The position numbers were made by a program, and so were the translations under genes. Under the pieces are notes generated by a model. That model searched no databases, was not told the DNA's origin, and was given only the letters and a program-made list of their open reading frames with translations. From a virus: DNA of 21,434 nt. Location of the stretch: positions 1 to 21,434 of IMG/VR virus record IMGVR_UViG_3300020200_001360; one strand, 5' to 3'. Position 1 is the stretch's first letter. Each line of letters starts with the position of its first letter. Shown here piece after piece: positions 4,387-21,434 of the stretch.

Positions 4387-5574
4387 TTATAATAACCAAC
4401 TTAAATCAACATCATTACCCCTAATATCTTTCATTAAGTAAGGATTTTGTTGATATCCGTTGTTAGAATACACTCCCTTATCACCTGATATTTTGATTAT
4501 ACTACCCAATGTGCTACGGGTTAAATCCATACCTTGCTTTCTTAATTTTAGTGCAGTATCCCTTACCCATAAACCTGTTGAAAATGATATTACCAAATCA
4601 TCGTTGTAACCCCTTTGTGCTTCTGCCTTTGAACCATTCCAAATAAAGACAAATAATTCATCTATTAATCGTTTGGAATGAATAATCGGAACTTTTTCTC
4701 GCATATAAGTATCTAATTTTGATACTATAAGAGGACGGGTTCTTTGTGTCATTGAAAATCCTGGCACCATATCCTCTTTTAATTTTAGGTCCCATCCCCT
4801 CCGCAGGTGAATATCATCATCTACATAACCCAACTCCCTATATGAATAATATAAATTTTGATAGTTACGGTCAATTGCCTCCTGAATAACTGCCCACCCA
4901 ATATTTGCATTTTCAATCACCAAAAGAGCATTATTCCACTCCGTTGCAACTGATGTTAAGAACGCGCCATACTGCTTTGTTTCTATCTTACCTCTATATT
5001 CTGCAACCTGTTCAACCGATTCCACATCAATGACATGAAAAGCGGAATAATCCGCACCATCACCCCTCGCAACATCCGCCACAACAACATAATCTTTTTC
5101 GTAATTTGGATAATCCCATATCCAATAATTCGCATCAAACCCACGCTTTTCAACAGGTTCGGTAATGTAAGTTTCCTTATACCACTCCAAAACGCTACCA
5201 TCTACAACGGTATAACCTGATGATATGAAATCGCAATTATGTGATACAACACCATCTACATTAAATATATTACCCCCACCAACCTCAACAATATCATACA
5301 ATGTAGTATCCATATCAGCATATTCAATAGATACCACATCAACATATTGATTATCAACCGATGATATTTTAGAACCTACTACCAAATCGGAAGCCAATAT
5401 CTTTTCACCATCCAACATAAATGGGTGGTTATCTGAACATTTTAGTGTTTTTCCGTTTGAAAAGGTTATTGTATAAATTGAAGTCTTGTTTAAGCACCTC
5501 ATTCCACCAAACGGCTGAAAGCCGCTTGGCGTCATTATTTCAAACCTATTATTTGCTTTAAAATTATAATTCAT
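4387..5574 (-). CDS. terL: Terminase large subunit, C-terminal half with intein C-fragment
   Basis: This 395-residue protein carries an intein C-fragment (residues 1-113) and then the terminase nuclease half (114-395). The extein begins CDFISSGYTVV, the natural continuation of the N-half that stops at QECD. The RuvC-like nuclease acidic residues are visible: D167 in VVADVARGDGADYS, E221 in LVIENANIGW and D325/D326 in GYNDDLVIS. Spliced to the 244-residue N-extein it would give a terminase of about 526 residues, shorter than T4 gp17 (610) but complete in both domains. The start codon lies inside the end of the endonuclease gene (11-nt overlap), so translation is probably coupled to it. No ATPase motif is encoded here, so this polypeptide alone cannot package DNA. 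Confidence 0.92.
   Translation of the reverse strand: MNYNFKANNRFEIMTPSGFQPFGGMRCLNKTSIYTITFSNGKTLKCSDNHPFMLDGEKILASDLVVGSKISSVDNQYVDVVSIEYADMDTTLYDIVEVGGGNIFNVDGVVSHNCDFISSGYTVVDGSVLEWYKETYITEPVEKRGFDANYWIWDYPNYEKDYVVVADVARGDGADYSAFHVIDVESVEQVAEYRGKIETKQYGAFLTSVATEWNNALLVIENANIGWAVIQEAIDRNYQNLYYSYRELGYVDDDIHLRRGWDLKLKEDMVPGFSMTQRTRPLIVSKLDTYMREKVPIIHSKRLIDELFVFIWNGSKAEAQRGYNDDLVISFSTGLWVRDTALKLRKQGMDLTRSTLGSIIKISGDKGVYSNNGYQQNPYLMKDIRGNDVDLSWLL
5236..5574 (-). other. Intein C-fragment (IntC, 113 residues) of an atypically split TerL intein
   Basis: Residues 1-113 of the C-terminal terminase gene form the intein C-part. Block B is seen as LKCSDNHPF, with His50 (SxxH in place of TxxH). Block F is LYDIVEVGGGNIFNVDG, and block G is VVSHN with His112, Asn113 and the nucleophile Cys114 as the first extein residue. 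Block B normally belongs to the N-part. Its presence here means the split lies between blocks A and B, unlike the usual split site where an endonuclease domain would sit. This matches the architecture of the AceL-TerL split intein from Ace Lake metagenome data (25-residue IntN, 104-residue IntC). Confidence 0.9.
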
Positions 5575-6304
5575 TATGCTTCACTCTGATAAAGTTACAT
5601 GACAATAATTTTTCTATTTCAAATTGGCGTATTAAATCTTTTTGTTTAAGTTGACCATTTTCATCAAAGTGATGTTTTTCATCGTATTCTATTACAATAT
5701 TTTTTTCCTTGCTATATCCATCGACAAAATAACCAAGTTCTTTTATATAGTATTCACCACCATTTTCAGCATGTTGTAAGTCGGTTATACCCAATTTTTT
5801 TGCAACTTTTTCTATTTCTACAATTGAGTTATGGTTGTATCGCGGAACAGCTTTACCTTTTAAACTTTGAATATATTTTAATGTAGATACTCTCATCTTA
5901 TTTTTGGTAATGTTTGTATGCTTTTTACCAAAAAACGATTTTTTTGGCTCTGGGCAGTGTCTACAATACTTTTCCCAATTATAAACTTTTCCACACTCAC
6001 ATTTTAATTTTTCCAAATCACCATTATTTTCCGTTAAAAAAATCATACGATATTTGAAGTTATATTTTCCTTTATAGGTATTTTGCAATTTCAGCATATC
6101 TTCAAGAGGTTGGGTATGATAGTAAATTGATTTATACAATTTTGGGTTTTCACATATCATTGTTCTATTTTTAGCTCTACCAAAATAATTTTTATAATAA
6201 TACTCTCCTAATAATAATTGAATTGTTTCTTCAATAGAATATACTTCTGATATACTATCTATATTATTTTTTATTTTTTGCCAACCATCTTTTATATATT
6301 GCAT
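5564..6304 (-). CDS. Free-standing homing endonuclease, Vsr-like (EDxHD) family, inside the fractured terL locus
   Basis: This 246-residue protein probably cuts intein-less terL alleles so that the split-intein locus can spread. A Cys cluster KCECGKVYNWEKYCRHC (C102, C104, C114, C117) suggests zinc binding. Residues 124-138 (FFGKKHTNITKNKMR) resemble a NUMOD-type DNA-binding helix. The C-terminal domain reads GYFVDGYSKEKNIVIEYDEKHH (in part), with Asp195, Glu206, Asp208, His211 and His212, then FIRVK. This is the layout of Vsr-like nucleases described in 'fractured genes' with split inteins (Dassa and colleagues, 2009). It lies between the two terL halves. Upstream the coding strand has GAAAGGGGTTT before the ATG and a candidate promoter motif. 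Its last codons overlap the next start by 11 nt. The nuclease family is fairly sure; its target is inferred. Confidence 0.85.
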   Translation of the reverse strand: MQYIKDGWQKIKNNIDSISEVYSIEETIQLLLGEYYYKNYFGRAKNRTMICENPKLYKSIYYHTQPLEDMLKLQNTYKGKYNFKYRMIFLTENNGDLEKLKCECGKVYNWEKYCRHCPEPKKSFFGKKHTNITKNKMRVSTLKYIQSLKGKAVPRYNHNSIVEIEKVAKKLGITDLQHAENGGEYYIKELGYFVDGYSKEKNIVIEYDEKHHFDENGQLKQKDLIRQFEIEKLLSCNFIRVKHNEL

Positions 6305-6332
6305 AAACCCCTTTCATTTACACTCTTGTGAT

Positions 6333-6346
6333 AATAAATATGAAAT
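6333..6346 (-). promoter_or_regulatory. Spacer motif, candidate promoter of the endonuclease gene
   Basis: Reading ATTTCATATTTATT in the transcription direction, it starts at the stop codon of the terL N-half and ends 28 nt before the endonuclease ATG. It could drive the endonuclease and IntC-TerL genes separately from the N-half. Function is inferred from motif recurrence. Confidence 0.4.
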
Positions 6347-7170
6347 TATAATCTATCATATAACTCAAATAAGGATATTTCACAAATTTCACCTGTATGG
6401 GTATCTTTTACAACCACATTCGAATCTCCCCACAAACAATCGCATTCTTGAGCAGCACCCGTTTCACCCAATAATCTTGTTTGTTCTTCCCGCCACCTAT
6501 TACTTCTTTCTGGGTGAACTGTCCAATGTAACTTTGTTGGATGCCACTTATCACCATTTTCTCCTTGTAACCAAATTTTATGAAAGAAATTACCTACCCC
6601 GTTTGGTGTTGAAAGAACGATAGTACCACCACCTGTTGAAAGTGTGGATTGCGCTGATAACCATATTTCCTCAATACCTTTAATATGTGCGGCCTCATCA
6701 ATAATCAACAACGATAGTGCTTCAGAACGTCCTGCCGTTTCAGTCGCAGATACTGCTTTAATTTGAGAACCATTTTTCAATCTAAGTGATAATTTGTTAT
6801 CTTCGGAAGCAGCCACTTTTAACCAACTTGGTAGGTTATCATGCATAAACCTAACTTTGGTTACAAGGTTTTTTGCAACATCCTGATTAGTGGCGATTAC
6901 AAGTATGTTTTTATCCCTTTCAAACATCATCAACCAAAGAGAATACCCCGCTGATATAGTAGATATACCTAACTGACGTGATTTAAGAATAACATTGAAA
7001 CGATGATTTTTAAAATCATCAATTAGGTTTTCCTGAAAATCGTAAAGGTTGAATAATATCTTGCCCTTGTGTGGGTGTTGTATATAACAATATTTTTTGA
7101 AAAAATATATGGGGTCTGTAGCGCACTTTACATACTCCTCAGATATTATCTCCTTTAAGCTTTTTGACAT
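6346..7170 (-). CDS. terL: Terminase large subunit, N-terminal ATPase half ending in intein N-fragment
   Basis: This 274-residue protein is the packaging-motor ATPase half of TerL. Counted from the ATG, KSRQLGISTIS (63-73) is the Walker A region, LLIIDEAAH (155-163) is Walker B with Asp158/Glu159, and TIVLSTPNG (183-191) is the coupling motif. The Walker A lacks the usual GK[T/S]; the lysine sits at its front (Lys63), as in lambda gpA-type terminases. The extein ends at QECD (244). The remaining 30 residues start with Cys245 and form an intein N-fragment. I chose the ATG at 7170 rather than an in-frame TTG five codons upstream, because GGAG lies 9 nt before it and TAATG links it to the preceding stop. 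No small-terminase gene is recognisable next to it. Confidence 0.92.
   Translation of the reverse strand: MSKSLKEIISEEYVKCATDPIYFFKKYCYIQHPHKGKILFNLYDFQENLIDDFKNHRFNVILKSRQLGISTISAGYSLWLMMFERDKNILVIATNQDVAKNLVTKVRFMHDNLPSWLKVAASEDNKLSLRLKNGSQIKAVSATETAGRSEALSLLIIDEAAHIKGIEEIWLSAQSTLSTGGGTIVLSTPNGVGNFFHKIWLQGENGDKWHPTKLHWTVHPERSNRWREEQTRLLGETGAAQECDCLWGDSNVVVKDTHTGEICEISLFELYDRL
6349..6438 (-). other. Intein N-fragment (IntN, 30 residues) of an atypically split TerL intein
   Basis: After the extein end QECD the sequence reads CLWGDSNVVVKDTHTGEICE and ends ELYDRL before a stop codon. Cys1 and the GDS.V......G pattern form intein block A. It resembles the AceL-TerL IntN as I recall it (CVYGDTMVETEDGK..., ending DLYKRLA). 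No block B follows, since that is on the partner fragment. A fragment this short is typical of the atypical split class. Confidence 0.88.
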
Positions 7171-7772
7171 TATCTTATTCTCCAATAAAGCTTTGCGGTA
7201 AATGTGGGGTTAATTTCATTATCCAACCCAATACCAATCCCATATATTTTTCTTTTTTTAGTTCTAACTAACACCTCACCATTCATCATCATAAATCCAC
7301 GATTTCCTGATAAAGAACTACCCAAATAAAGTTCTCTTTTATCAATGAAAATGCTGTTGGTTACTATTTTCGTTGGTATACGGATAGTAGAGGTTGTTTG
7401 ACGGGATTCGATTTTGTTTTGTGATATGGTGTCGTTTATTGTTACATATCCAAATGTGTCTACCGCAACAGTATCTTGATAATAATATTTTGAATAATAA
7501 TCTGTCAAAAGTGCCATTGTATCAATAGGTTGTGATTGATTTACTATAAAGCTATCAATATCAATTACAACTCTATCTTTCCATTCTGGGGTATATATAG
7601 TTGATACATTATTGATTGTATCATACTTATACTCTATTGTGGTTACAGTATCCATAATGGGTTCATTTTTGAAAATATCTTTAATGGTCCCAAATGGTAT
7701 TTTATCCCTCAATAAAAATAAGGCGATTAATACAACTAATATTATTCCAATAAATTTAGATACTTTACTCAT
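7170..7772 (-). CDS. Single-pass membrane protein upstream of terL, DUF6808-like
   Basis: From the ATG at 7772 this is a 200-residue protein. Residues 6-24 (KFIGIILVVLIALFLLRDK) form one transmembrane helix with short basic N-terminal residues, so the rest probably lies outside the cytoplasm. The remainder is β-rich and Thr/Ile-rich (TVTTIEYKYDTINN, YYQDTVAVDTFG, STIRIPTKIV) and ends in a segment typical of a small barrel or fold (IYGIGIGLDNEINPTFTAKLYWRIR in parts). It resembles DUF6808-type proteins of Bacteroidetes phages, but that is a recollection of style, not a match. A longer frame reaches further upstream, but it overlaps the 109-residue gene heavily and encodes only basic residues, so I prefer the internal ATG with an 8-nt overlap. 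A spanin-like role with its neighbour is possible but unproven. Confidence 0.7.
   Translation of the reverse strand: MSKVSKFIGIILVVLIALFLLRDKIPFGTIKDIFKNEPIMDTVTTIEYKYDTINNVSTIYTPEWKDRVVIDIDSFIVNQSQPIDTMALLTDYYSKYYYQDTVAVDTFGYVTINDTISQNKIESRQTTSTIRIPTKIVTNSIFIDKRELYLGSSLSGNRGFMMMNGEVLVRTKKRKIYGIGIGLDNEINPTFTAKLYWRIR
7180..7183 (-). promoter_or_regulatory. Shine-Dalgarno (GGAG) deciding the terL start
   Basis: GGAG lies 9 nt before the ATG at 7170 and inside the last codons of the upstream membrane-protein gene. It favours that ATG over the upstream TTG and fits coupling through the TAATG junction. Confidence 0.6.
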
Positions 7773-11863: not shown

Positions 11864-11880
11864 TATAAATATACTGAAAT
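11864..11880 (-). promoter_or_regulatory. Spacer motif, candidate late promoter
   Basis: ATTTCAGTATATTTATA in the transcription direction, 12 nt before the 194-residue gene's ATG and touching the stop of the 1049-residue gene. It keeps TTCA and ATTTATA but has extra bases between them. Confidence 0.38.
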
Positions 11881-14800
11881 TAATAGAATAAACCCAAAAT
11901 TTGATTTAAACTAGCGAAACTTCCAGTTAGCTTCAGCGTATTTCCCTTATATACAAAAACTATTCCCTCATTCGGAACAATTTTATCAGGACCGCCTACT
12001 GCCGCCATTCTTTCAAGCTCTAATTGTAATTTTCTTATCTTTTTTTCATCCCCACCACTTTGAACATCTTTAATCGTTTGGTCTAATCGTTGTTTCATAT
12101 TACGAACTGCTGAATCTGGGTTTATTGTCAATACCGAACTCATCAACGATAATACTTCTGCACCAACACCTAAGAATATATCTTCAAATGGACGGATATT
12201 ATCTTTTGATATTTTTTGGTGGTCATTCTTATCTACACCCTTTGCCCATTCTAATACCTTGTCTGATTTGATGTTATTATTATTTAACACAAAACTCTTA
12301 TCGTAAAATGCCCATCTTTTTATTAAACCTTCTCTTGTTGATTTATCCAATTTTTCAGGTGAGTTTTTATCTATGAAATCTCCCCACCACGCCTGATGAT
12401 ACTCTGCCATACCATCACTATCTTTTAAACCATATTTTGATTGTAGTTTGTTTAACATCCCCAAGTACTTTGGTTGTAATTTTTCCAAGTGCATTTCCTT
12501 TGGTAGTTGTGTAATAGGTGGTCCTTGTATTGTGTATTTATCCTGTATATGCTGATTGATTTGTTTAATCATTCCCGCCAATACCGCTGCATCAGATTGG
12601 TCTGCCCCAATAGCAACACCCGATTCATCATATTCAGTAGTATTATGAAAAACCAAAAGAGCCTGACCATAAGGTATTACATTTACTGATGTTGGATATA
12701 TAACTTCCAAATTCATAAACTTCACACCCTGTTTGAAAATTTTATCCCTTTGTGCTTTTGATAACCCCTTTACTGCGGTTTCTAAATCCCGCATAGCAAA
12801 GTTGTAAGCATCAGTCAATCCACCCCTACCTCCGAACTTTGAAGCAACATCTGCGGCGTTCATTGCATCTTCGCCCCGATTAGCAAGGTGCCCCTTGTTT
12901 CTTGCAGCAATTAACCCCTTATCATCTCGCCAACTAATAGCAAGTGCCTGCCCATCGGTCTTTTCTCGAGTTAATTCTAAATCACCTTTTAAGGCCTTTG
13001 TTATTATATTTTTTAAATCACCAAAAGTTAAACCCAACTCTAAATCAAACGGATGATTCATGTGTCCGTATGCCCCACCGCATAAAAGTAATATACGATT
13101 ATCCAATTTATGTTCACTATGAGTTATATCTTTTATTAAGGTTCGCAATTTAATGCTAGAACCACCACCTTTACTCTCATTTAAACTGTGATGTTTTATT
13201 TCTAAATTTTTATAATGTGAAATCACCTCTATGGGTATATTATTATTAAATCCGTCCAATATAGAATATTTGTGGTCTAAGTGATATTCTCTACTACGCT
13301 TTTTGGCATTTGGTATTAAATTAAAATATTTAAGATATTCATCATTTGTTAATCTACGAACATTTTCAACATATATTAAATACGCATTTCTATTTTCAAC
13401 AGGTGTCCAATTTAAAATGTTTGCTATTGTTTTTTGAGTTTCTTTATTACCAAATCCAAATTGTTTACCAACATTACTTCTTAATTCTTTAAGTGATGCA
13501 TTATTGATGTATGATTTTCTAACACCTTCTGATATTTTTTTTCTAAATAATATGTTTTTATTTTTTTCAGAAACATCTAATCTAATTTTTCCTTTGTTTT
13601 TACCCATCATCAGATTACTATGATTTTTTTTGTATTCATCCGATTGCATTATTTTTTTATGTTTCTCTTTAACAATCGTAGAATTCATTGGATTTTTATC
13701 TCCAAAATTTTTAAAATGTTCTGATATCAATGGGTGATTTGGATACTTTTCTATGTATTCTTTCATAGACATACGATGTGAGTATTTTAAGTGTCTGTAT
13801 TGTATCTGTTTAAACCATTCACCACACTCCGCACATTGTACCATTCCGCTTTTTTCATAATTGTTGTAATCACCCGACAAAAACTTAGAAAACTTTTTAC
13901 CAATTCTTTCTAATAACTTATATTGCTTTCTATCTATTATTTCTAATTTTTTTCCAATTACCCATTCAACAATCTCATATCCTAACCCCCTAAATACTTC
14001 CTGCAACTCCTCATCCTCCATACCAGTAACATCAATCTCTACTTCGGGTGGAGCTTCAGGCGGTGCAACATCTAATGGTGTAGTAGCAATATCAGCAGTT
14101 ACATAATCTTCTGTTTCGGGTATATCTAAAAGGTCATCCATTGTGAATACCTTTCTTCTAACCGCATACTGATAGTAATCACCAGTATTTTTTGCATTTC
14201 GTTTAACTATCATATCTGCTTTTGGAAACTCCATTTGTGTATACCCACCACGAACAAACCAATAGTCATTTTTTTGCGCATCTTTACCTAAACCCAATAC
14301 ACGCTTTTTACCCGATGGAACATAAATTGCATCGGGCTCACCTGCATCTGCGCCGTATCCACTTCCCAATGTTGATTCAATAAGGGGAATTAAATTATAC
14401 TTATTAAAGAATTCTGATATAATTTCGTTTACTCCACCCAGCTTTTGGGTTATCATATTGTATATTTTTGGGTTAAACTTTGGATATGCTTTTTTAAATC
14501 CTGCTTTTCTTTGTGATTCATCTCCGGTCGATAACCATTTTCTTACATCCGTTCCACTTATTGAGTTTGCCTGCATTGGTGATGTGTATACATAACCACT
14601 TTCCCCATAACCACTCGCAGGTTTAAATCCGGCTCCAGCATGAAACTTTTTGAAATATTTACCACCCAATCGTTGTGCATCCTTTTCTCCTACTACAGTT
14701 ACAAATGCCGTTGTTTTGGGTGAAAATCCACTTAATATTTCAGTTGGATTATATGGGTTTTTTACCTGCACTACCTTATTTTTTGGGATATCAAACATTG

Positions 14801-15029
14801 TAGTCATTATTGTTTTTTTCTCCAAAAAGTTAAAGGGGTCTTTCGGCCCACCACTTTTATTGGATGTCCCAATCCAAACCGCATCCTTACCAAACTTTTG
14901 AACTAAATGTGAATAGGTAGCATAATGCCCCTTGTGGAAAGGTTGAAACCTGCCCGCGTATACTACCACTATATCTTTTACTTCTTCGGTTAATATCCCC
15001 CTAACCCATTCTTTTATTAAATTTCCCAT
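11880..15029 (-). CDS. Two-domain nucleotidyltransferase/ligase-like phage protein with in-frame HNH insertion
   Basis: This 1049-residue protein has several parts. After a leader ending GILTE|E (11-15), residues 20-200 form a HxGH nucleotidylyltransferase: GRFQPFHKGH (26-35) and SISGTDVR (156-163), as in NMN or pantetheine-phosphate adenylyltransferases. Residues 205-355 are a phage-specific β module (RGGYTQMEFPKAD) with an acidic Pro-rich linker. Residues ~356-625 are an HNH homing-endonuclease-like insert. The rest (~645-1049) has CGGAYGHMNHPFD, EKTDGQ with Lys690 as a KxDG ligase-type motif I, IAARNKG (707-713) and NLEVIYP (773-779), like DUF6267 phage proteins. KxDG suggests covalent nucleotidyl transfer, perhaps to nucleic acid. 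The two activities could act together in NAD or RNA/DNA repair, which is inference. The substrate is unknown. Start: the ATG is 3 nt after a spacer motif. Confidence 0.85.
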   Translation of the reverse strand: MGNLIKEWVRGILTEEVKDIVVVYAGRFQPFHKGHYATYSHLVQKFGKDAVWIGTSNKSGGPKDPFNFLEKKTIMTTMFDIPKNKVVQVKNPYNPTEILSGFSPKTTAFVTVVGEKDAQRLGGKYFKKFHAGAGFKPASGYGESGYVYTSPMQANSISGTDVRKWLSTGDESQRKAGFKKAYPKFNPKIYNMITQKLGGVNEIISEFFNKYNLIPLIESTLGSGYGADAGEPDAIYVPSGKKRVLGLGKDAQKNDYWFVRGGYTQMEFPKADMIVKRNAKNTGDYYQYAVRRKVFTMDDLLDIPETEDYVTADIATTPLDVAPPEAPPEVEIDVTGMEDEELQEVFRGLGYEIVEWVIGKKLEIIDRKQYKLLERIGKKFSKFLSGDYNNYEKSGMVQCAECGEWFKQIQYRHLKYSHRMSMKEYIEKYPNHPLISEHFKNFGDKNPMNSTIVKEKHKKIMQSDEYKKNHSNLMMGKNKGKIRLDVSEKNKNILFRKKISEGVRKSYINNASLKELRSNVGKQFGFGNKETQKTIANILNWTPVENRNAYLIYVENVRRLTNDEYLKYFNLIPNAKKRSREYHLDHKYSILDGFNNNIPIEVISHYKNLEIKHHSLNESKGGGSSIKLRTLIKDITHSEHKLDNRILLLCGGAYGHMNHPFDLELGLTFGDLKNIITKALKGDLELTREKTDGQALAISWRDDKGLIAARNKGHLANRGEDAMNAADVASKFGGRGGLTDAYNFAMRDLETAVKGLSKAQRDKIFKQGVKFMNLEVIYPTSVNVIPYGQALLVFHNTTEYDESGVAIGADQSDAAVLAGMIKQINQHIQDKYTIQGPPITQLPKEMHLEKLQPKYLGMLNKLQSKYGLKDSDGMAEYHQAWWGDFIDKNSPEKLDKSTREGLIKRWAFYDKSFVLNNNNIKSDKVLEWAKGVDKNDHQKISKDNIRPFEDIFLGVGAEVLSLMSSVLTINPDSAVRNMKQRLDQTIKDVQSGGDEKKIRKLQLELERMAAVGGPDKIVPNEGIVFVYKGNTLKLTGSFASLNQILGLFY
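13155..13964 (-). mobile_element. In-frame HNH homing-endonuclease-like insertion (boundaries approximate)
   Basis: Within the 1049-residue frame, about residues 356-625 look foreign. They hold a C2H2-like finger (CAEC at 399-402, His413, His418, then YIEKYPNHPL), a NUMOD3-like FGDKNPMNS (442-450), helix-rich repeats (MMGKNKGKIRLDVSE), and an HNH core EYHLDHKYSILDGFNNNIPI with His583, Asp585, His586, NLE (608-610) and Asn617. Codons are more AT-rich than the flanks. Flanking sequences read as two halves of a phage protein. No intein blocks (initial Cys, terminal HN) and no clear group I intron core were found. It may be an unspliced domain, a degenerate intein, or an open intron. The endpoints are uncertain by tens of bases. 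Confidence 0.7.
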
Positions 15030-15171: not shown

Positions 15172-15459
15172 CTATTCTTCTTTCGAATATAATGATGTGA
15201 ATTCTCTTTTAGACTCTAATTTAGTTATTGATTCTGATTTAGAAGTTTCATATAATCTTATATTTTTATACCAAAACCTCTCATGTATAAAATAAATTAA
15301 AGGTTTAACAATCAATTCTACTATACCTAAAATTGATGATAGTTCTAAAGACGCACCTAATAGATATGCTGTTGTAACAGTTGTAAGTGTTCCTAACATT
15401 CTATATGATATGGTTTTGAGTATGTGGCGAATAAGAGCAGATTTTTCTTTAAGTTGCAT
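15172..15459 (-). CDS. DUF2061 small inner-membrane protein
   Basis: This 95-residue protein has the DUF2061 signature: an N-terminal amphipathic segment (ALIRHILKTISYRMLGTL), two hydrophobic helices (about 21-38 and 41-58) and FIHERFWYKN just after, then a charged Ser/Lys/Glu tail. Its function is unknown. In bacteria it often lies beside adenylylsulfate kinase genes, and that is also the case here: the nucleotidylyltransferase and APS-kinase-like genes lie immediately upstream (2-nt gap). It is the last gene of the cassette. Involvement with sulfate activation or export of a sulfated product is a reasonable guess. The tail after residue ~68 is longer than the core family needs. Family call firm, role inferred. 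Confidence 0.85.
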   Translation of the reverse strand: MQLKEKSALIRHILKTISYRMLGTLTTVTTAYLLGASLELSSILGIVELIVKPLIYFIHERFWYKNIRLYETSKSESITKLESKREFTSLYSKEE

Positions 15460-15461
15460 TT

Positions 15462-15818
15462 TTATAATTTTCCTTCTTTTTTTAGTTGTTCTCTAATTTT
15501 AGTAGCCGATATTTGAGATATATTTTCGGGTACTACATGCTCTATTATTTCATATCCTACACCTCTTCCGTAATTAACCGATTCAATATCAGGAACAACA
15601 ATTACTTTAACCCTACCTTCTTTAATTAAATCCTGATATTCCTGTTCAACATTTTGTTTAATTTCCTCCGCTGTCCAAGGTTGGTTTTCATTTGATTCTA
15701 CATCTCTAATAGCTATACATACATTTTTACCTAATTTCAATCTTTCATTAAAAATATACTTATGGCCTTCATGTAAAGGTTGCCATCTACCTATAAAAAT
15801 TGAATATTGTTTTGTCAT
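15462..15818 (-). CDS. Single-domain HxGH nucleotidylyltransferase in the sulfation cluster
   Basis: This 118-residue cytidylyltransferase-like fold protein has GRWQPLHEGH (10-19), the ATP/CTP-binding HxGH, and ISATKIR (103-109), the second phosphate-binding motif. PDIESVNYGRGVGYEII near 77-92 is a typical phage/marine variant. The length is close to the smallest enzymes of the family, such as glycerol-3-phosphate cytidylyltransferase. Substrate choice cannot be read from the motifs. Placement directly after the APS-kinase-like gene (ATGA overlap) hints at a role in sulfate activation, and ATP sulfurylase shares this fold, but the protein is far too short to be a standard ATP sulfurylase. A nucleotide-sugar or glycerol-phosphate role is an alternative. 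It is translationally coupled upstream and lies 2 nt from DUF2061. Confidence 0.82.
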   Translation of the reverse strand: MTKQYSIFIGRWQPLHEGHKYIFNERLKLGKNVCIAIRDVESNENQPWTAEEIKQNVEQEYQDLIKEGRVKVIVVPDIESVNYGRGVGYEIIEHVVPENISQISATKIREQLKKEGKL

Positions 15819-16249
15819 AATATTTTATTTATACATTCGGTTACTGAACAATTTGTCGTGTCTATATCTATAAAGTTAATAATTGGTGGTTCATAATCAG
15901 GTGAATGGTATTGCTCCCTTCCTCTAATCTCCGTTGTGTGAACATATAATTCTTTTATTTCACTTCCAAGCTCTTTTTTAAATGCTTCCCTTAACTCTTT
16001 ATAAGGGGAAACTAAACTAACAACAACATCAAATCCCTTTAAGTGTAAAAACTTAGTTATTTGTTGCGCTAAAGTTATGTTTTTATATCTACCCTCTTTT
16101 GAATAATCTTTATTATCAAAGATTTCACGTATATCATCGCCATCAACATGGATTACTTTTTTGTAATGATTTGTTTCTAAATATTCTTTTAATGCTTTGC
16201 TTAGCACAGTTTTTCCAGCACCTGGCTGACCTGTAAACCAATATATCAT
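15815..16249 (-). CDS. cysC: Adenylylsulfate kinase-like P-loop kinase (short form)
   Basis: This 144-residue protein looks like APS kinase, which phosphorylates APS to PAPS, the sulfate donor used by sulfotransferases. The P-loop is TGQPGAGKT (6-14). The APS site is seen as VDGDDIRE (35-42), and GRYKNITLAQQ (54-64) and VVVSLVSPYKELRE (75-88) are family blocks. It is shorter than the usual ~200 residues. The C-terminal lid containing KGLYKKA in normal enzymes is replaced by TTEIRGREQYHSPDYEPP, so the active-site lid is different. Both ends overlap neighbours by ATGA, between the GT9-like gene and the nucleotidylyltransferase. The sulfotransferase two genes upstream would be the PAPS consumer. 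Family assignment is good, but activity is not certain because of the altered lid. Confidence 0.82.
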   Translation of the reverse strand: MIYWFTGQPGAGKTVLSKALKEYLETNHYKKVIHVDGDDIREIFDNKDYSKEGRYKNITLAQQITKFLHLKGFDVVVSLVSPYKELREAFKKELGSEIKELYVHTTEIRGREQYHSPDYEPPIINFIDIDTTNCSVTECINKIL

Positions 16250-17244
16250 TGTAGTATTTTATTTAATTCATTAAAATCAAACATTTCGTTTATATTTTCA
16301 TATGGGCACTCATGCAATACTCCATCAAATGAATAATCAAATAAATATGCATCTACTAATTTTGTATTTCCTTTTGGTGGTAGAGCTTTTATATTAGTGT
16401 GTAAATCATACCCAAAGTTTTCGGGTGATGTTCCAATCCATAATACAACAGAAGGTAGATTAAAACCAGCAGCAGCATGCTGTAAACATGAATCTATTAA
16501 TATCCGTTTATCGGAAGCGGCTACTAATGCAAATAATTCTGCGGCGGTGGTAGGTGTATTAACAATCTCTGCTCCCATAATTTGTGGGGAGTTTGGTCTT
16601 GTAACTTGTATTATGTGGTGGGTATTAACATATTTATTTGCTATTTCGGTAGCAAGTTCAATAGGCATATCCCTTGTCCAAGCATAGTTGTAATTTTGAT
16701 TTTGAAAAAATCCACCATTAGTGTGAATTAAACAAATTGGTTTATTCCGCTTCCACCCCTCAATTAATTTTTGTTGAACCATATTTAATCTTAAATCAGG
16801 TGTAAATGGTGATTTTATATCTATACCCAATAAATCAGCCCAGTTTTTAATTAAATGTTTTCGTTTTAAAATGTGCCCTGTTTGAAAATAGGGTTCGTGT
16901 CTAAATACCAATGTATCTTTATTTAATATATAATCATCATAAAAATATGCTGTCATTCCGACCCTATAAACTCTATATACATCTGGGTGATTAAGAAATA
17001 CTTCGGGATAAGATGCTACTATAATTATTTTTCGGCTTGGGTATTTTTTTGCTATGTGGGGTATTAATGTGGTTGCTGCAATGTTTTTACCTAAACCACC
17101 CTCAATATGCCACACTAAAAACTTGTTATCCATATTATTATCTTTATTTTGTGCTAATGAAACTATTATTGGAGAATGGTTTTCGTTGGGTATTTCAATG
17201 GAATTAAAATTAAACTCACTATTAGTTTTAAACCCTACTTTCAT
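16246..17244 (-). CDS. GT9-like (heptosyltransferase-type) glycosyltransferase
   Basis: This 332-residue GT-B fold protein resembles ADP-heptose:LPS heptosyltransferases. After a ~40-residue N-terminal extension, WHIEGGLGKNIAATTLIPHI (45-64) is the N-domain acceptor loop. The C-domain shows ELATEIANKY and ASDKRILIDSCLQHAAAGFN (243-262), followed by VVLWIGTSPENFGYD, the donor-binding half of the family. An internal ATG at codon 38 would give a more standard length, but the ATGA coupling with the sulfotransferase gene supports the long form. The sugar donor and acceptor are unknown. It may act on host LPS or on a phage-made glycan. Short coupling on both sides indicates one operon with the sulfation genes. 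Confidence 0.75.
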   Translation of the reverse strand: MKVGFKTNSEFNFNSIEIPNENHSPIIVSLAQNKDNNMDNKFLVWHIEGGLGKNIAATTLIPHIAKKYPSRKIIIVASYPEVFLNHPDVYRVYRVGMTAYFYDDYILNKDTLVFRHEPYFQTGHILKRKHLIKNWADLLGIDIKSPFTPDLRLNMVQQKLIEGWKRNKPICLIHTNGGFFQNQNYNYAWTRDMPIELATEIANKYVNTHHIIQVTRPNSPQIMGAEIVNTPTTAAELFALVAASDKRILIDSCLQHAAAGFNLPSVVLWIGTSPENFGYDLHTNIKALPPKGNTKLVDAYLFDYSFDGVLHECPYENINEMFDFNELNKILQ

Positions 17245-18062
17245 ATTTTATATTCAAAATCATTAAAAAACCAAGCATAATTGTTTTCAATTATTTTACA
17301 CGCATTTACCCCCAAAACCTCTATAAAATCTTCTTTTAAAGGTTTGATTTCATTTCTGATTATATGGTCTCCAAAAATACCATACCATTTATCATCCTCG
17401 TGGGTTACTTGTTTGATATTTTTAAAATCATGATTATAATAAGGTAATTCTAAATACTCATACACCCTCTCCATTTGTGCCTTTGGGTTAGAACACAGTT
17501 CTTCAAATTTTATAAATAGTATATTTTTGTGTAAACCTTGTACCAAAACCTGATATATTCTATCCATTGATGGTCCAATTGGTGGGTTTGCAGACCAAAC
17601 TTCTACTCTTTTATCGGTAGTAGTACCTGTTAAATTTCCCCAATTTGCTAAATGGTGGTCTAAAAGAGGGTGTTTTCTAAACTTTTTTTCCATAGAAGCA
17701 TAAACCGCTCTTATATCCCTAATCATGCAAATAATTTTTGGATTAGGTTCAAATGCGTTTATAAACTCCCATTCAGAGTTCCACCCCCTACATTTATCAA
17801 CTACATATGGTTTATCGGTGATGTTGTTAAAAAACCCATATAATCCACCTTTTAAGTATCCTCTAAACCCATTTAACATTTCTTCTTCGTTTTGGGCTTT
17901 AAACTCTAACCCATCGGTAAAGATTGTTCGAGACGCGGCTAACATTTCAAATAATCCTGATGTGGGTGTGGTATAAAATTCTGAATTTTGTCCCAATATG
18001 TTCTGCATTAAAGTAGAACCAGCTCTAGGCATAGAGCTATTGTAAAATATTTTTTTAACCAT
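17241..18062 (-). CDS. PAPS-dependent sulfotransferase
   Basis: This 273-residue protein transfers sulfate from PAPS to a hydroxyl or amine, probably on a glycan. The 5'-phosphosulfate loop is SSMPRAGSTLMQNIL (9-23). The 3'-phosphate site is CMIRDIRAVYASM (112-124), with Arg115 and Ser123. FIKFEELCSNPKAQMERVYE (183-202) is the usual third conserved block. The length is normal for the family. It starts the tight run sulfotransferase, GT9-like, APS-kinase-like, nucleotidylyltransferase, DUF2061. The upstream neighbour is a small structural-looking gene. Its products could be sulfated host LPS, capsule, or virion sugar. Such genes occur in marine phages, where their targets are not known. Family call is firm. 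Confidence 0.88.
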   Translation of the reverse strand: MVKKIFYNSSMPRAGSTLMQNILGQNSEFYTTPTSGLFEMLAASRTIFTDGLEFKAQNEEEMLNGFRGYLKGGLYGFFNNITDKPYVVDKCRGWNSEWEFINAFEPNPKIICMIRDIRAVYASMEKKFRKHPLLDHHLANWGNLTGTTTDKRVEVWSANPPIGPSMDRIYQVLVQGLHKNILFIKFEELCSNPKAQMERVYEYLELPYYNHDFKNIKQVTHEDDKWYGIFGDHIIRNEIKPLKEDFIEVLGVNACKIIENNYAWFFNDFEYKI

Positions 18063-18089
18063 AACTAATTTTAGTAAATTGTAAATTTT

Positions 18090-18455
18090 TTAGAACATTC
18101 CACCCATATTTTCTATACTTCCTGATACTATATTTGTAACAGTTGTGCCTTGTTTTTTTGCAATTGCCTTTAAGATAATGCTATCATCTTCTCCCCAAGT
18201 TGAAATAACTTCGCCTGAAAGTGTTGTGCTGTTGGTGTGTATTGTTGTAAAATCAGTTACATTGCCAGTATCATCAAAAGTGCAGTTTCCATACATAACA
18301 CGGAAATTAACTTCATTAGCACCTAATATATAATTATGGGCAAAAGCTGTTATATAGCTTCCCGTAATGTAATTTGGGGTAGAACTAAAAATATTAGTTT
18401 GTTCAACTAATGTAATGTTAGGGTTTATTTGTCCAAAAATTGCTGTTTTTTTCAT
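18090..18455 (-). CDS. Small probable virion protein, unknown function
   Basis: This 121-residue protein is Thr/Ser/Asn-rich with a β character (FGQINPNITLVEQTNIFSST, ending NIVSGSIENMGGMF) and has no signal peptide, membrane helix or enzymatic motif. The block AHNYILGANEVNFRVMYGN (79-97 approx. less) and STWGEDDSIILKAIAKKQGT resemble small structural proteins of T4-like phages from my recollection. It interrupts the row of transferases, separated on each side by spacers (27 and 16 nt). One spacer contains the candidate promoter motif, so it may be expressed as a late gene on its own. It could be a tail or fibre component that the neighbouring enzymes modify. Not recognised firmly. Confidence 0.68.
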   Translation of the reverse strand: MKKTAIFGQINPNITLVEQTNIFSSTPNYITGSYITAFAHNYILGANEVNFRVMYGNCTFDDTGNVTDFTTIHTNSTTLSGEVISTWGEDDSIILKAIAKKQGTTVTNIVSGSIENMGGMF

Positions 18456-18471
18456 AGTATTTACTTGTTTA

Positions 18472-19104
18472 TTATAAATATGTATTTTTTATTAGAAAAT
18501 CCATTTGGAATATTTGATTGTTTAAATATTTGTAATCTAATATATCTTCTATCTTAAATGAATATTCTTGCATCTTACCCATTATAATATCTACTAGTGG
18601 TGTATTATCATTGTAGTGTAAAACGGATACTTCCAATATTAAGTATTTTGTTCGTTTTATAGTTTTAATTCCACCTAATAATATGTCTAATTCCGAACCT
18701 TGTGTATCAATTTTTATTAAGTCTATTACCGTTTCGGGAAATAGATTTAAATTATATAATGTATTTAATTGAATGGGGATTTTATGATATTTTCCTTCTC
18801 CATAAAATTGAGTGTTTTCTTTGTATATAGAAGTACCTGTTCCTATATGATTATCATTTTCAATATATAATTCTGATGTGCTTTGTTTTGATGATAATCC
18901 TATAATTTGGTAAGGTTTATTTAACTTTTGAAGGTATGGTTCACAATTTGGATTGGCTTCAATTAGATAGCAAGAGCATTGTGGTGATATTTTTAGTATA
19001 TTTCGAGTAAAATTCCCAATATGTGCCCCAATATCTATAAATGTATTAGGTTTTGTATAGTAAGATAATAAATTATAATCCATCAAGTAAAGTTTTCCAT
19101 TCAT
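18472..19104 (-). CDS. FkbM-family SAM-dependent methyltransferase
   Basis: This 210-residue protein has a Rossmann-type methyltransferase core. TFIDIGAHIGNFTRNIL (21-37) is the SAM-binding loop with Asp24, YLIEANPNCEPYLQKL (46-61) places the acidic Glu49, and DLIKIDTQGSELDILLGG (128-145) is the FkbM signature. FkbM enzymes O-methylate sugars or polyketides; here a glycan is likely because of the neighbours. Two starts are possible: the ATG at 19104 (32-nt overlap with the GT4 gene) and one at 19083 (11-nt overlap, MDYNLLSYY). The core begins shortly after either. Neither has a strong ribosome site. Family call is good, substrate unknown. Confidence 0.85.
   Translation of the reverse strand: MNGKLYLMDYNLLSYYTKPNTFIDIGAHIGNFTRNILKISPQCSCYLIEANPNCEPYLQKLNKPYQIIGLSSKQSTSELYIENDNHIGTGTSIYKENTQFYGEGKYHKIPIQLNTLYNLNLFPETVIDLIKIDTQGSELDILLGGIKTIKRTKYLILEVSVLHYNDNTPLVDIIMGKMQEYSFKIEDILDYKYLNNQIFQMDFLIKNTYL
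18473..18487 (-). promoter_or_regulatory. Spacer motif, candidate late promoter
   Basis: AAATACATATTTATA in the transcription direction, 17 nt before the 121-residue gene. It overlaps the end of the FkbM gene. This placement would start a second transcript inside the cassette. Confidence 0.45.
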
Positions 19105-19975
19105 TTATTCTTACATCCCAAGACCATTTTTGTTTATATCCATCAATTTGTAATTGAGAATTAAATTTACCACTTTTAACATGTTTTATTTCTTCGGCTA
19201 GTATTTTTGAAAAGTAGATAGCGTGTGTTTGTTTATCCATTAGATATGGATACATTCTTGCCCATCCTTCAGTAGTTTCGGGTAGTGCTCCTAAGTTAGA
19301 TGTAATTACTCTCAAACCCGCTGATAGTGCTTCGATAACTGATATGCATGAGGTTTCTTCAAATGTGTTTGGATAAGCTAAAATATCAAAATGAGATAGT
19401 TCGTTTCGTAATTCATTATTAGGTATTGAACCTCTATAAATTACATTGGGTAATTCATTACATTTATTATATAAATCAGAATATTGTTCATCATTTTTAG
19501 AAAATTCTTCACCATATATTTTACACGATGAAAATATGTGTAATTCACAATTTTTTGGATTTAATATCTCCCAACTTTGTAATAGTATATTTAAACCTCT
19601 CCAAGGTGTTGATGTATAGCATATTTTGATTTTTTCTGGATTGGTAGGTTGTTTTATATCTACACCAATACAAGCATTTTTTATAATGTATGATTTATAT
19701 CCTGGGATGTTAAATGTTTTTCTATATATTTCAGATTGCCAATGACTAACAAATACAAAATGGTTTATTTGTTCAATATATTTTGGGTCTTTTAAAAATT
19801 GAACAGCTTCTTGATCATATGAAAGCTGATTCCAGAATATAGTTTTCTTGCTAAAATCTGCTTGTGGTAGATAATTGAATATAGAAATATTATTCCATAT
19901 ATTTTCGGGTAATCTATTTTTTAATTCGGCAAACATAAGTTCAGTTCCACCCATAGGTTTATCAAACATATCCAT
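19073..19975 (-). CDS. GT4-family glycosyltransferase
   Basis: This 300-residue GT-B protein has a short N-domain that starts with FDKPMGGTELMFAELKNRLP (4-23), the acceptor loop. YTSTPWRGLNILLQSWEIL (120-138) is the donor-domain start. YPNTFEETSCISVIEALSAG (201-220) holds the E-x7-E motif (Glu207 and Glu215), and ITSNLGALPE (224-233) closes the sugar-nucleotide site. It is shorter than typical GT4 enzymes (350-400), mainly in the N-domain. The start overlaps the preceding GT2-like gene by 14 nt, and a second Met is at codon 3. Its product would be a glycan that the neighbouring methyltransferase and sulfotransferase could modify. Donor sugar unknown. Confidence 0.87.
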   Translation of the reverse strand: MDMFDKPMGGTELMFAELKNRLPENIWNNISIFNYLPQADFSKKTIFWNQLSYDQEAVQFLKDPKYIEQINHFVFVSHWQSEIYRKTFNIPGYKSYIIKNACIGVDIKQPTNPEKIKICYTSTPWRGLNILLQSWEILNPKNCELHIFSSCKIYGEEFSKNDEQYSDLYNKCNELPNVIYRGSIPNNELRNELSHFDILAYPNTFEETSCISVIEALSAGLRVITSNLGALPETTEGWARMYPYLMDKQTHAIYFSKILAEEIKHVKSGKFNSQLQIDGYKQKWSWDVRINEWKTLLDGL

Positions 19976-20618
19976 TTTTTTCTAAAAAGTTTTGTATATT
20001 TCCTTTATATTTTTTTACACCGTTATGGTTACATGTTATTGTAGGGTCTAACCACACCTTATATCCTAATGATTTCCATTTGTTACACATAATGTAATCT
20101 TCTGATATCAAATCCCCATTTTCTATTTTAATATCAAATACCATTCGGTTATCTTTACCATCGTGAAAATAAGGTTCGCTCATTAACCATAATTTATCTA
20201 TTGCAAATCTATCTATTTTTAAAAAACCAGTACCCACACCATCTACTTCTAGTAGTTTTTTGTCTATAGAGTATTTTAAGATTTTATTAGTTATTTTTAT
20301 AGTATATCCTTCATTATCAGATTTTTTTACAAGTGCTCCACCAACCATAGGTTCAGGTCTTTCTAACAATCTAAAAAACCATTCAGGCTCCCATTCCGTA
20401 TCTGAATCTATGAAAAATAGAACATCATATTCACCTTCTAATGCCATTCTAAAAAGGTCATTTCGGGCCCTTTGTATTAAAGAATCGTAAGATGGATAAA
20501 TAGCATCTATTTGAATTTTTTTAGGTATAGATTGTTTTATAGTTCTAACCAACGAATCAGCAAACCAAGTATCTATCCTACCATCATATGTGGGTGTTCC
20601 TATTAAAACTTTACTCAT
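19962..20618 (-). CDS. GT-A (GT2-like) glycosyltransferase
   Basis: This 218-residue protein begins MSKVLIGTPTYDGRIDTWFA, the N-terminal β-strand of GT-A enzymes. SLIQRARNDLFRMAL follows, then VLFFIDSDTEWEPEWFFRLL (66-85), with the metal-binding DxD motif at Asp71-Asp73. GVGTGFLKIDR and SEDYIMCNKWKSLGYKVWLD (172-191) are the acceptor and His-containing end, closing CNHNGVKKY. The length is near the minimum for the fold, with no membrane segment, so it is probably a soluble transferase using a sugar nucleotide. It is the first gene of the cassette, and the weak variant spacer motif ATAATTATTTAT runs into its start. Substrate not predictable. Confidence 0.85.
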   Translation of the reverse strand: MSKVLIGTPTYDGRIDTWFADSLVRTIKQSIPKKIQIDAIYPSYDSLIQRARNDLFRMALEGEYDVLFFIDSDTEWEPEWFFRLLERPEPMVGGALVKKSDNEGYTIKITNKILKYSIDKKLLEVDGVGTGFLKIDRFAIDKLWLMSEPYFHDGKDNRMVFDIKIENGDLISEDYIMCNKWKSLGYKVWLDPTITCNHNGVKKYKGNIQNFLEKNGYV

Positions 20619-20814: not shown

Positions 20815-21434
20815 TCATCCTGGTGAGTAACAAGGTATTAAAACTACTGCTCCATCTAATATTATTTCCATCCAATATCTGGGTTCTGATAAATATTTGT
20901 CCACATGTGTACCAGAGTGTCCCTTAATAGCTATAATAGGTGCGCCACCTTCTTCAAGTGGGTTATTACTAACTTGTGCAGCATCAATTCGAAGATATTT
21001 ATTTGCTGATGGATCAGATGTAATATGAATATGTGAGCTTGGGTTTGTTTGTTGGATACCAACTCTACCTGAACCTGTTACAAATAATGAACCATTTACT
21101 GATGGTGTATCTACTCTGAATGTAACATCTGAAGAAGAACCAGTTATGTGTAATTTTGCAGATGGGGATGTGGTGTTTATGCCTATATTGCCACTACCAC
21201 TTATAAAGAAATATTCAGCACCAGTTGTGCTTTGAACACGCATTAAATTATCAGTAGCTACAGTACCACTAATATGTAAAGATGCTGTTGGAAATCTTGT
21301 TCCAATTCCTACTCTTGATGACCCTACAGTTGTTCCTACCGAGTCTATAGTTAATACAGCATCAGTTAAAGCTGTTGCGGATGTTCCAGCATTGTTATTT
21401 AATAAAAAATATATTTTACCACTTGCATTAGAAC
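20815..21434 (-). CDS. Fibre/adhesin-like virion protein, C-terminal part (start beyond window)
   Basis: The frame is open to the window edge, so the Met at 21243 is internal and at least 206 residues are visible. It shows three imperfect repeats: SRVGIGTRFPTASLHISG, GNIGINTTSPSAKLHITGSS and GRVGIQQTNPSSHIHITS. This [R/N]hGI..xxPxxxhHI pattern is common in phage fibre shafts and in other trimeric β-structured virion proteins. The end, from YLRIDAAQVSN to SEPRYWMEIILDGAVVLIPC, is a different, possibly receptor- or base-binding domain. It is not the S74 intramolecular chaperone often found after such repeats. The glycosylation and sulfation genes follow directly, so the fibre could be their target or could meet the surface they change. 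Family is inferred from repeats. Confidence 0.8.
   Translation of the reverse strand, partial: SNASGKIYFLLNNNAGTSATALTDAVLTIDSVGTTVGSSRVGIGTRFPTASLHISGTVATDNLMRVQSTTGAEYFFISGSGNIGINTTSPSAKLHITGSSSDVTFRVDTPSVNGSLFVTGSGRVGIQQTNPSSHIHITSDPSANKYLRIDAAQVSNNPLEEGGAPIIAIKGHSGTHVDKYLSEPRYWMEIILDGAVVLIPCYSPG

Follow-up and report, generated by a model that had tools for sequence, protein, structure and literature searches.

A phage gene cassette predicted to produce a sulfated glycan, with a candidate for a third type of ATP sulfurylase

Genes of the cassette

The analyzed window, the whole stretch of 21,434 nt, is a contig fragment of a marine-type phage. A gene cassette was found at positions 15172-20618 on the minus strand, in the order GT2-like glycosyltransferase, GT1, FkbM, a small unknown protein, sulfotransferase (ST), GT9-fold protein, APS-kinase-like protein (KIN), nucleotidyltransferase (NT), and DUF2061. 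Directly upstream lies a fibre-like gene, open at the contig end. The features are as follows:

20815..21432, minus strand: C-terminal part of a tail-fibre-like protein (phrog_9942 tail fiber, E 4e-10)
19962..20618, minus strand: GT2-like glycosyltransferase, 218 aa (phrog_1574, E 2e-23; phrog_8858 glycosyltransferase)
19073..19975, minus strand: GT1/GT4-type glycosyltransferase, 300 aa (PF13692, E 2.4e-10; phrog_2170 glycosyltransferase, E 7e-28)
18472..19104, minus strand: FkbM-family methyltransferase, 210 aa (PF05050, E 5e-19; TIGR01444 above cut-off)
18090..18455, minus strand: 121-aa protein, function unassigned (homologues in viral loci L001 and L102, next to the sulfation genes there)
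17241..18062, minus strand: PAPS-dependent-type sulfotransferase, ST, 273 aa (PF13469, E 1.7e-17; PF00685, E 6e-14)
16246..17244, minus strand: GT9-fold (heptosyltransferase-like) glycosyltransferase, 332 aa (AlphaFold2 model and Foldseek)
15815..16249, minus strand: APS-kinase-like protein, KIN, 144 aa, lid segment deleted (PF01583, E 7e-18)
15462..15818, minus strand: HxGH nucleotidyltransferase, NT, 118 aa (PF01467)
15172..15459, minus strand: DUF2061 small membrane protein (PF09834, E 9.5e-15)

The clustering of glycosyltransferases, an FkbM methyltransferase, a sulfotransferase, an APS-kinase-like enzyme, a nucleotidylyltransferase, and DUF2061 had been described in an earlier note, and all genes named there were recovered in place by Pfam, PHROG, or model matches. 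The ATGA overlaps reported for most junctions were found only at ST/GT9, GT9/KIN, and KIN/NT, the other junctions being longer overlaps or short gaps. The gene at 18090-18455, inside the cassette, was missing from the earlier list. Its product has no Pfam or PHROG match; as a guess, it may serve as an acceptor or have a structural role. A promoter scan gave counts at chance level, and a terminator scan only a small excess over chance.

Pfam cut-offs were exceeded by the GT1 protein (PF13692, 41.3 bits, cut-off 27), the FkbM protein (PF05050, 69.4 bits, cut-off 22.7), ST (PF13469, 64.8 bits, cut-off 27), KIN (PF01583, 65.5 bits, cut-off 21.1), NT (PF01467, 27.2 bits, cut-off 21), and DUF2061 (PF09834, 55.2 bits, cut-off 23.1). 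The GT2-like protein scores under the PF00535 cut-off (21.2 vs 23.3 bits); its gene has an equivalent place in L001. The protein encoded at 16246..17244 has no Pfam sequence match, and its AlphaFold2 model (pLDDT 82) indicates a predicted GT9 fold, the best Foldseek PDB matches being the GT9 proteins 3tov (E 5e-12), 1psw, WaaC, and TibC.

ST contains the motifs PRAGSTL (residues 12-18) and RDIRAVYAS. With a 5'-phosphosulfate loop, a 3'-phosphate motif, and a Pfam score over the cut-off, it is a predicted PAPS-dependent sulfotransferase; a PDB search gave a weak match to tyrosylprotein sulfotransferase 1 (E 0.006). In KIN, alignment reveals the P-loop GQPGAGKT, DGDDIR, and SPY..R. These correspond to the P-loop, DGDxxR, and SPYxxxR of APS kinases and, together with the Pfam score, mark KIN as a putative member of this family. 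The lid LYKKARxGEIKGFTG is deleted in the phage proteins and in the Marinimicrobia forms, and KIN stays under the cut-off of the APS kinase equivalog TIGR00455 (69.8 vs 138.7 bits). Its activity is thus less sure. Inactive sites, which by the earlier note would speak against its proposal, were not seen in either enzyme, as the catalytic motifs of both are kept, although KIN is without the canonical lid.

Sequence and relatives of the nucleotidyltransferase

Invariant positions of NT are GRxQxxHxGH, GRxVGY, and the I and R of ISATxIR. The closest proteins in sequence and fold are the NadM/NMNAT adenylyltransferases (hhalign E 1.7e-17 across the first half), and sulfate specificity is therefore assigned to NT by genomic context. 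NadM-type enzymes have the frame GRxQPxHxGH, NPxT.xE, and I.AT.IR in common with NT, but are larger, have other gene partners, and, in the rows compared, are without the R38 and GRxVGY conserved in NT. Scores of NT are far under the curated cut-offs for the NMNAT subfamily (31.7 vs 127 bits) and for NadM/Nudix (36.2 vs 397 bits), so that by these models NT would not be classified as an NMN adenylyltransferase. A match between NT and Crov588 in the PDB (E 2.7e-7) was discarded as the sum of eleven weak matches to a leucine-rich repeat protein.

To our knowledge, two types of ATP sulfurylase are known, Sat and CysDN. With Sat (PF01747), Sat-APS kinase fusions, and human PAPSS, NT shares the HxGH motif, the ISxTxxR end, and the pairing or fusion with APS kinase in either order. 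In human ATP sulfurylase, the corresponding HNGH motif is essential (PMC11697783). However, Sat has about 400 aa compared with 118 aa in NT, the Sat motifs QxRNPxHxxH and GRDHAG are not found in NT, and the first half of NT resembles NMN adenylyltransferase rather than Sat. No PF01747 match was found in the window, and a few NT genes elsewhere reach 16-19 bits, under the cut-off. We do not claim that NT is homologous to Sat proper, as a profile-profile comparison aligned only the last 25 columns. CysD-CysN (TIGR02039 and a GTPase) is unrelated to NT: CysD is a PP-loop protein and CysN a GTPase, whereas NT has the HxGH fold and no GTPase partner. Common to both is the genomic slot beside APS kinase, CysQ, and sulfotransferases, and their distributions are mutually exclusive.

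Distribution in viruses and cells

KIN-NT(-DUF2061) forms a conserved, ordered module in approximately 129 viral contigs. The KIN-NT pair, found in 121 viral loci, is always on one strand and mostly overlapping (median overlap 14 nt), and is fused in Casjensviridae (AhaSv) and DLP_6. DUF2061 comes after NT in most viral loci, and the GT9-fold gene accompanies ST/KIN in 32. The whole order GT2-GT1-FkbM-HYP-ST-GT9-KIN-NT recurs in L001. This conservation far exceeds chance. By profile searches, which recovered known members missed by a strict motif search, 42 viral loci were found to carry ST and 13 a second sulfotransferase family, together 55 of 130; the L014-type 'ARTGST' proteins, having no Pfam or PHROG match, were excluded from this firm count. 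About half of the viral loci have no recognised sulfotransferase within the available contig sequence. Relatives of ST are rare in phage records overall (10 of 50,697). Those of the cyanophages S-SKS1, S-SRM01, and S-SCSM1 are homologous to ST at 23-31% identity but, unlike in the window, no KIN relative was found in their records. The surroundings of the viral modules yielded no CysQ-like gene.

In cells, NT and APS kinase are neighbours or fused, with either one first, and these kinases are mostly full-length. Genes for Sulfotransfer_1, _3, and _5 proteins and a CysQ-like phosphatase are found nearby. Among 50 NT genomes, many of them incomplete MAGs or SAGs and the related ones non-independent, APS kinase was found in 49, Sulfotransfer_1 in 38, and Sat in only 4. 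Two of the four Sat copies (in G015 and G018) have lost the QxRNP/HxxH/GRDHA residues, and a third, in G004, is weak counter-evidence because this genome is probably a chimeric MAG, a Gammaproteobacteria bin with a Marinimicrobia-like locus. CysD exceeds the cut-off in one genome, with two further partial matches; 30-bit matches in haloarchaea cover part of the model, lie far under the cut-off, and were not counted.

The exclusivity is also seen in 198 genomes of one order. APS kinase was found in 85 of these, 79 with CysD and six with NT; none of the 85 has both or neither, and none has Sat (Fisher p 2e-9, or 3e-4 using only the two genomes not found via NT). Moreover, a syntenic polysaccharide-sulfation locus contains APSK-NT in L236, L173, and L183 vs APSK-CysD-CysN in L233 and L238, while the flanking proteins, CysQ, sulfotransferases, and, mostly, a Wzx-type flippase are 36-82% identical. 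Thus, NT fills the ATP-sulfurylase slot (EC 2.7.7.4), with an APS kinase partner and with Sat and CysDN displaced. The clean evidence of displacement comes from genomes with full-length kinases, unlike the lid-less phage KIN. Because of this distribution and the syntenic swap, NT is most likely a third type of ATP sulfurylase, more like NMN adenylyltransferases than like Sat. The NT type is widespread in bacteria, archaea, and phages.

Proposed pathway, its target, and alternatives

From the gene content, we infer the following reactions. NT would convert sulfate and ATP to APS, KIN would phosphorylate APS to PAPS, and ST would move the sulfate from PAPS onto a glycan. The GT2, GT1, and GT9 enzymes would assemble the acceptor glycan, which FkbM probably methylates. 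We propose DUF2061 as a membrane accessory of sulfate activation, perhaps for sulfate uptake; it is fused to APS kinase in Chitinophagaceae and lies beside APSK-CysD-CysN in cells. Almost nothing was found on DUF2061 in the literature, and the earlier note did not link it to sulfate activation. Taken together, the cassette probably leads to a sulfated glycan via NT, KIN, and ST, with NT as the phage representative of a third, non-orthologous type of ATP sulfurylase. The sulfation module with donor and transfer steps proposed in the earlier note is supported, but the note did not recognise that sulfate activation is very probably the task of the nucleotidylyltransferase. An ATP sulfurylase, suggested there as a search elsewhere in the genome, therefore need not be sought; PF01747 exceeds its cut-off in none of the 34 large viral records of this group, with sub-threshold matches only at NT genes.

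The acceptor is most likely a fibre or virion glycan, because the cassette lies among structural genes, next after the fibre gene. A fibre-like gene occupies the corresponding place in L001, and in other contigs genes for virion structural, tail sheath, and tube proteins are again found around the module. This placement argues against the same pathway acting on the host envelope, for superinfection block or receptor masking. Such a target is nonetheless a real, if less probable, possibility, given the LPS-heptosyltransferase fold among the glycosyltransferases and the Marinimicrobia relatives located with likely surface-polysaccharide genes (Wzz-like and sugar-nucleotide enzymes, judged from sequence).

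The best matches of NT could also suggest an NMN, or other NAD-pathway, adenylyltransferase near APS kinase by coincidence, with PAPS made from host APS. This is unlikely: NadD exceeds the cut-off in 33 of 38 bacterial NT genomes, so that NT is not needed there for NAD, phage NadM genes adjoin nicotinamide phosphoribosyltransferase whereas NT adjoins APS kinase, and the distribution of NT mirrors that of CysD exactly. The distinct R38 and GRxVGY point the same way.

In the Campylobacter phosphoramidate pathway, the annotation of a Cj1415-type kinase as APS kinase persisted for a long time. A similar role of KIN and NT, making another activated group on a 3'-phosphonucleotide, would fit the missing lid and the best NCBIfam match of KIN, PRK05541, itself under cut-off. 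It is very unlikely in view of the full-length kinases beside most cellular NT, the replacement of CysDN by NT in a locus with CysQ and sulfotransferases, and the bona fide sulfotransferases adjoining the phage pair; the cassette showed no glutamine-kinase or amidate genes.

Least probable is an auxiliary role in assimilatory sulfate reduction for cysteine supply, as viral cysC, a known auxiliary gene, has been read (Kieft et al., 2021, PMC8190135): reduction has PAPS as a precursor, but neither a PAPS/APS reductase nor a sulfite reductase could be recognised among the cassette genes of this contig fragment, KIN is grouped with a sulfotransferase and glycosyltransferases, and cellular NT loci hold a flippase, CysQ, and sulfotransferases.

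Overall, it appears reasonably likely that NT founds a third and smallest ATP sulfurylase class, which arose in the HxGH superfamily from its NMN-adenylyltransferase branch and has taken the place of Sat and CysDN in numerous bacteria and archaea, and that phages carry a self-sufficient NT-KIN-ST module, with DUF2061 perhaps supplying sulfate, to decorate their own fibres or the host surface. Inorganic sulfate enters biology by way of ATP sulfurylase. No such enzyme, and no sulfated phage or host glycans of the predicted sort, were found described in a literature search whose coverage excluded most subscription papers, and novelty is provisional. If true, a 118-aa ATP sulfurylase would fill the 'missing sulfurylase' gap in the many genomes that possess APS kinase and sulfotransferases but no ATP sulfurylase of either known type. 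It would also be a convenient tool for making PAPS. DUF2061 thereby gains a testable role. Like the viral cysC genes of Kieft et al. (2021), KIN is an APS-kinase-type gene product of a phage genome; unlike these as read there, it belongs to a sulfation module with a predicted ATP sulfurylase and a sulfotransferase. Viral cysC would then be assigned to sulfation instead of sulfur assimilation, with the prediction that glycans of the phage or the host are sulfated.

Organization and conservation of the cassette

The window covers a viral contig in full (21,434 bases), which contains T4-like head genes (protease, portal, and terminase) together with the following features:

20815-21432, minus strand: C-terminal portion of a tail-fibre-like gene that is truncated by the contig end; the cassette comes after it
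15172-20618, minus strand: the cassette, in the order GT2-like and GT1 glycosyltransferases, FkbM methyltransferase, 121-aa protein, PAPS-type sulfotransferase (ST), GT9-like glycosyltransferase, APS-kinase-like protein (KIN, 144 aa), HxGH nucleotidyltransferase (NT, 118 aa), and DUF2061 membrane protein

The cassette, read in the earlier note as one that may make a sulfated, methylated glycan, is real and conserved. Going beyond that note, it is more interesting than first thought because it points to a putative third kind of ATP sulfurylase. ATGA overlaps, claimed for most genes, were found at three junctions (ST/GT9, GT9/KIN, and KIN/NT). Both PAPS-binding motifs are conserved in ST, which scores above the cut-offs of two Pfam families. 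The GT9-like protein had no match in a Pfam search; its model (pLDDT 82) has structural matches to GT9 heptosyltransferases.

Two other genes of the contig appear to be interrupted. The terminase large subunit (4387-7185, minus strand) is broken into two ORFs with intein-like ends (6346-7185 and 4387-5574), with a separate 246-aa endonuclease-like ORF (5564-6304) between them, an arrangement that resembles a fractured, split-intein gene. A 1049-aa ORF (11880-15029, minus strand) with a cytidyltransferase-like domain (phrog_395) has an in-frame insert (phrog_5104, residues about 387-641) that looks like a homing endonuclease or intein.

Searches with NT and KIN retrieved 129 viral contigs, giving 131 loci with two phage records. 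KIN was found in 127 loci, NT in 126, DUF2061 in 98, ST in 42, and GT9 in 32; as the loci were selected via NT or KIN, the informative point is that either one brings the other. Separate KIN and NT genes, found in 121 loci, are always on the same strand and in 94 overlap or lie at most 60 nt apart. Two further loci have KIN-NT fusions. The family phrog_10255 likewise consists of KIN-NT fusions and is represented in the Xanthomonas phage AhaSv and the Stenotrophomonas phage DLP_6. The order KIN-NT-DUF2061 is nearly constant, usually with ST ahead of KIN, and the closest relative (L001, a 230-kb contig) has the entire order from fibre-like gene through GT2, GT1, FkbM, 121-aa protein homologue, ST, and GT9 to KIN and NT. 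Counting a second, Pfam-recognised family, sulfotransferases were found in 55 of 130 viral loci within the flanking sequence covered; roughly half of the viral loci have no recognised sulfotransferase nearby. Short proteins starting with ARTGST (L014:5956-6552 and relatives in 12 viral loci), without matches in Pfam or PHROG, are possibly an undescribed sulfotransferase family. A Nol-like carbamoyltransferase family (L126:3639-5264) recurs close to the KIN-NT modules of 15 viral loci, a hint of additional decorated glycans.

NT as a putative ATP sulfurylase

The likely function of NT is given by its cellular relatives. Scanning genomes with an alignment of NT yielded 80 cellular loci from more than 10 phyla, in which NT adjoins or is fused to APS kinase: KIN-NT in haloarchaea, NT-KIN in Omnitrophota, and a KIN-DUF2061 fusion beside NT in Chitinophagaceae. 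Full-length canonical APS kinases were found in these three groups and in Flavobacteriales. Recurrent neighbours are sulfotransferases (Sulfotransfer_1, _3, and _5) and a CysQ-like phosphatase (Inositol_P).

The strongest single observation on replacement of ATP sulfurylase by NT is synteny. Loci L233 and L238 have APSK-CysD-CysN between sulfotransferases-flippase-CysQ-aldolase-like and TonB-like-GcvH-like genes. In L236, L173, and L183, APSK-NT lies inside the same neighbours (36-82% identity to their counterparts; flippase and sulfotransferases matched in L236 and L173). NT thus occupies the CysD-CysN position between conserved neighbours.

As to DISPLACEMENT of known ATP sulfurylases, APS kinase was found in 49 of the 50 cellular genomes carrying NT, Sat (PF01747) in 4, CysD over the cut-off in 1 (plus two partial strong matches), and Sulfotransfer_1 in 38. 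The four Sat copies are in G004, probably a chimeric MAG, G025, where Sat is intact, G015 (QTRHPLHRVH/GWDYA), and G018 (QTRHPLYRVH/GQDYA); intact copies have QTRNPMHRAH/GRDHA. Human PAPSS1 requires these motif histidines (PMC11697783), so at least the G018 Sat is probably inactive. The Nitrospiraceae loci L220 and L221 (G015 and G018) encode Sat-APS kinase fusions that have an intact kinase domain and have lost catalytic motifs of Sat; both genomes also have NT. Among 198 genomes belonging to the same order as G022, Sat was found in none and APS kinase in 85: 79 with CysD without NT, 6 with NT without CysD, and none with both or neither. Fisher p for this exclusion is 2e-9, or 3e-4 when the NT genomes are limited to the two retrieved by other means than NT, values that overstate independence because the genomes are related.

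NT consists of one HxGH nucleotidyltransferase domain (pLDDT of the model, 88), NadM-like in the first half of its sequence. The nearest structures are NadM, PPAT, and NMNAT; ATP sulfurylase 1v47 ranks 48 with a similar TM-score (0.49 vs. 0.54). An NMNAT role, to which these likenesses might point, is unlikely, as NadD is over the cut-off in 33 of the 38 bacterial NT genomes and phage NadM genes have other partners than NT. NT-specific residues are the nearly invariant R38 and the invariant GRxVGY. Docking of human PAPSS1 has sulfate held by two arginines, R421 and R522 (PMC11697783); by analogy, R38 and R85 (of GRxVGY) are candidate sulfate-holding arginines of NT. No PF01747 match over the cut-off was obtained in 34 large viral records; five faint matches (16-19 bits) are 136-143-aa frames at NT gene positions. 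The ATP sulfurylase reaction is known; the NT family in that role and the full phage-borne module appear to be new, a literature search of incomplete coverage having found no paper on such an enzyme or on a phage-encoded sulfotransferase module.

Phage kinase, DUF2061, and target of the cassette

In phage KIN the P-loop, DGDxxR, and SPYxxxR motifs are present; the lid segment LYKKARxGEIKGFTG is absent, as in the Marinimicrobia kinase, a weak point for its putative PAPS synthesis. Lid-less kinase and NT also occur in cellular loci L135-L150 (Marinimicrobia and others), with neighbours resembling UDP-sugar dehydrogenase, Wzz-like, and Sulfotransfer_5 genes. NT sequences of phages and Marinimicrobia are interleaved in the tree, suggesting exchange.

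Ten Flavobacteriales-type APSK-CysD loci were compared. Five have a 590-aa CitMHS/TrkA_C permease without DUF2061 (four of these permeases also match Na_sulph_symp), three have a two-repeat DUF2061 protein without such a permease, and two have neither. APSK-CysD-CysN loci with the two-repeat protein and without the usual sulfate-type 590-aa permease are L227, L232, and L234. This alternation, in a small sample, and the APS kinase-DUF2061 fusions suggest that DUF2061 may serve in sulfate supply.

The fibre gene is immediately followed downstream, on the same strand, by the cassette; in other contigs the surroundings of the module repeatedly include genes for virion structure, tail sheath, and tube. 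A change of the host surface by the cassette is a serious rival as to its target. An assimilatory role, as viral cysC is usually read (PMC8190135), is argued against by the cassette itself, in which no reductase gene was recognised. The simplest reading is a fibre or virion glycan, which would be expressed late and sulfated by the cassette.
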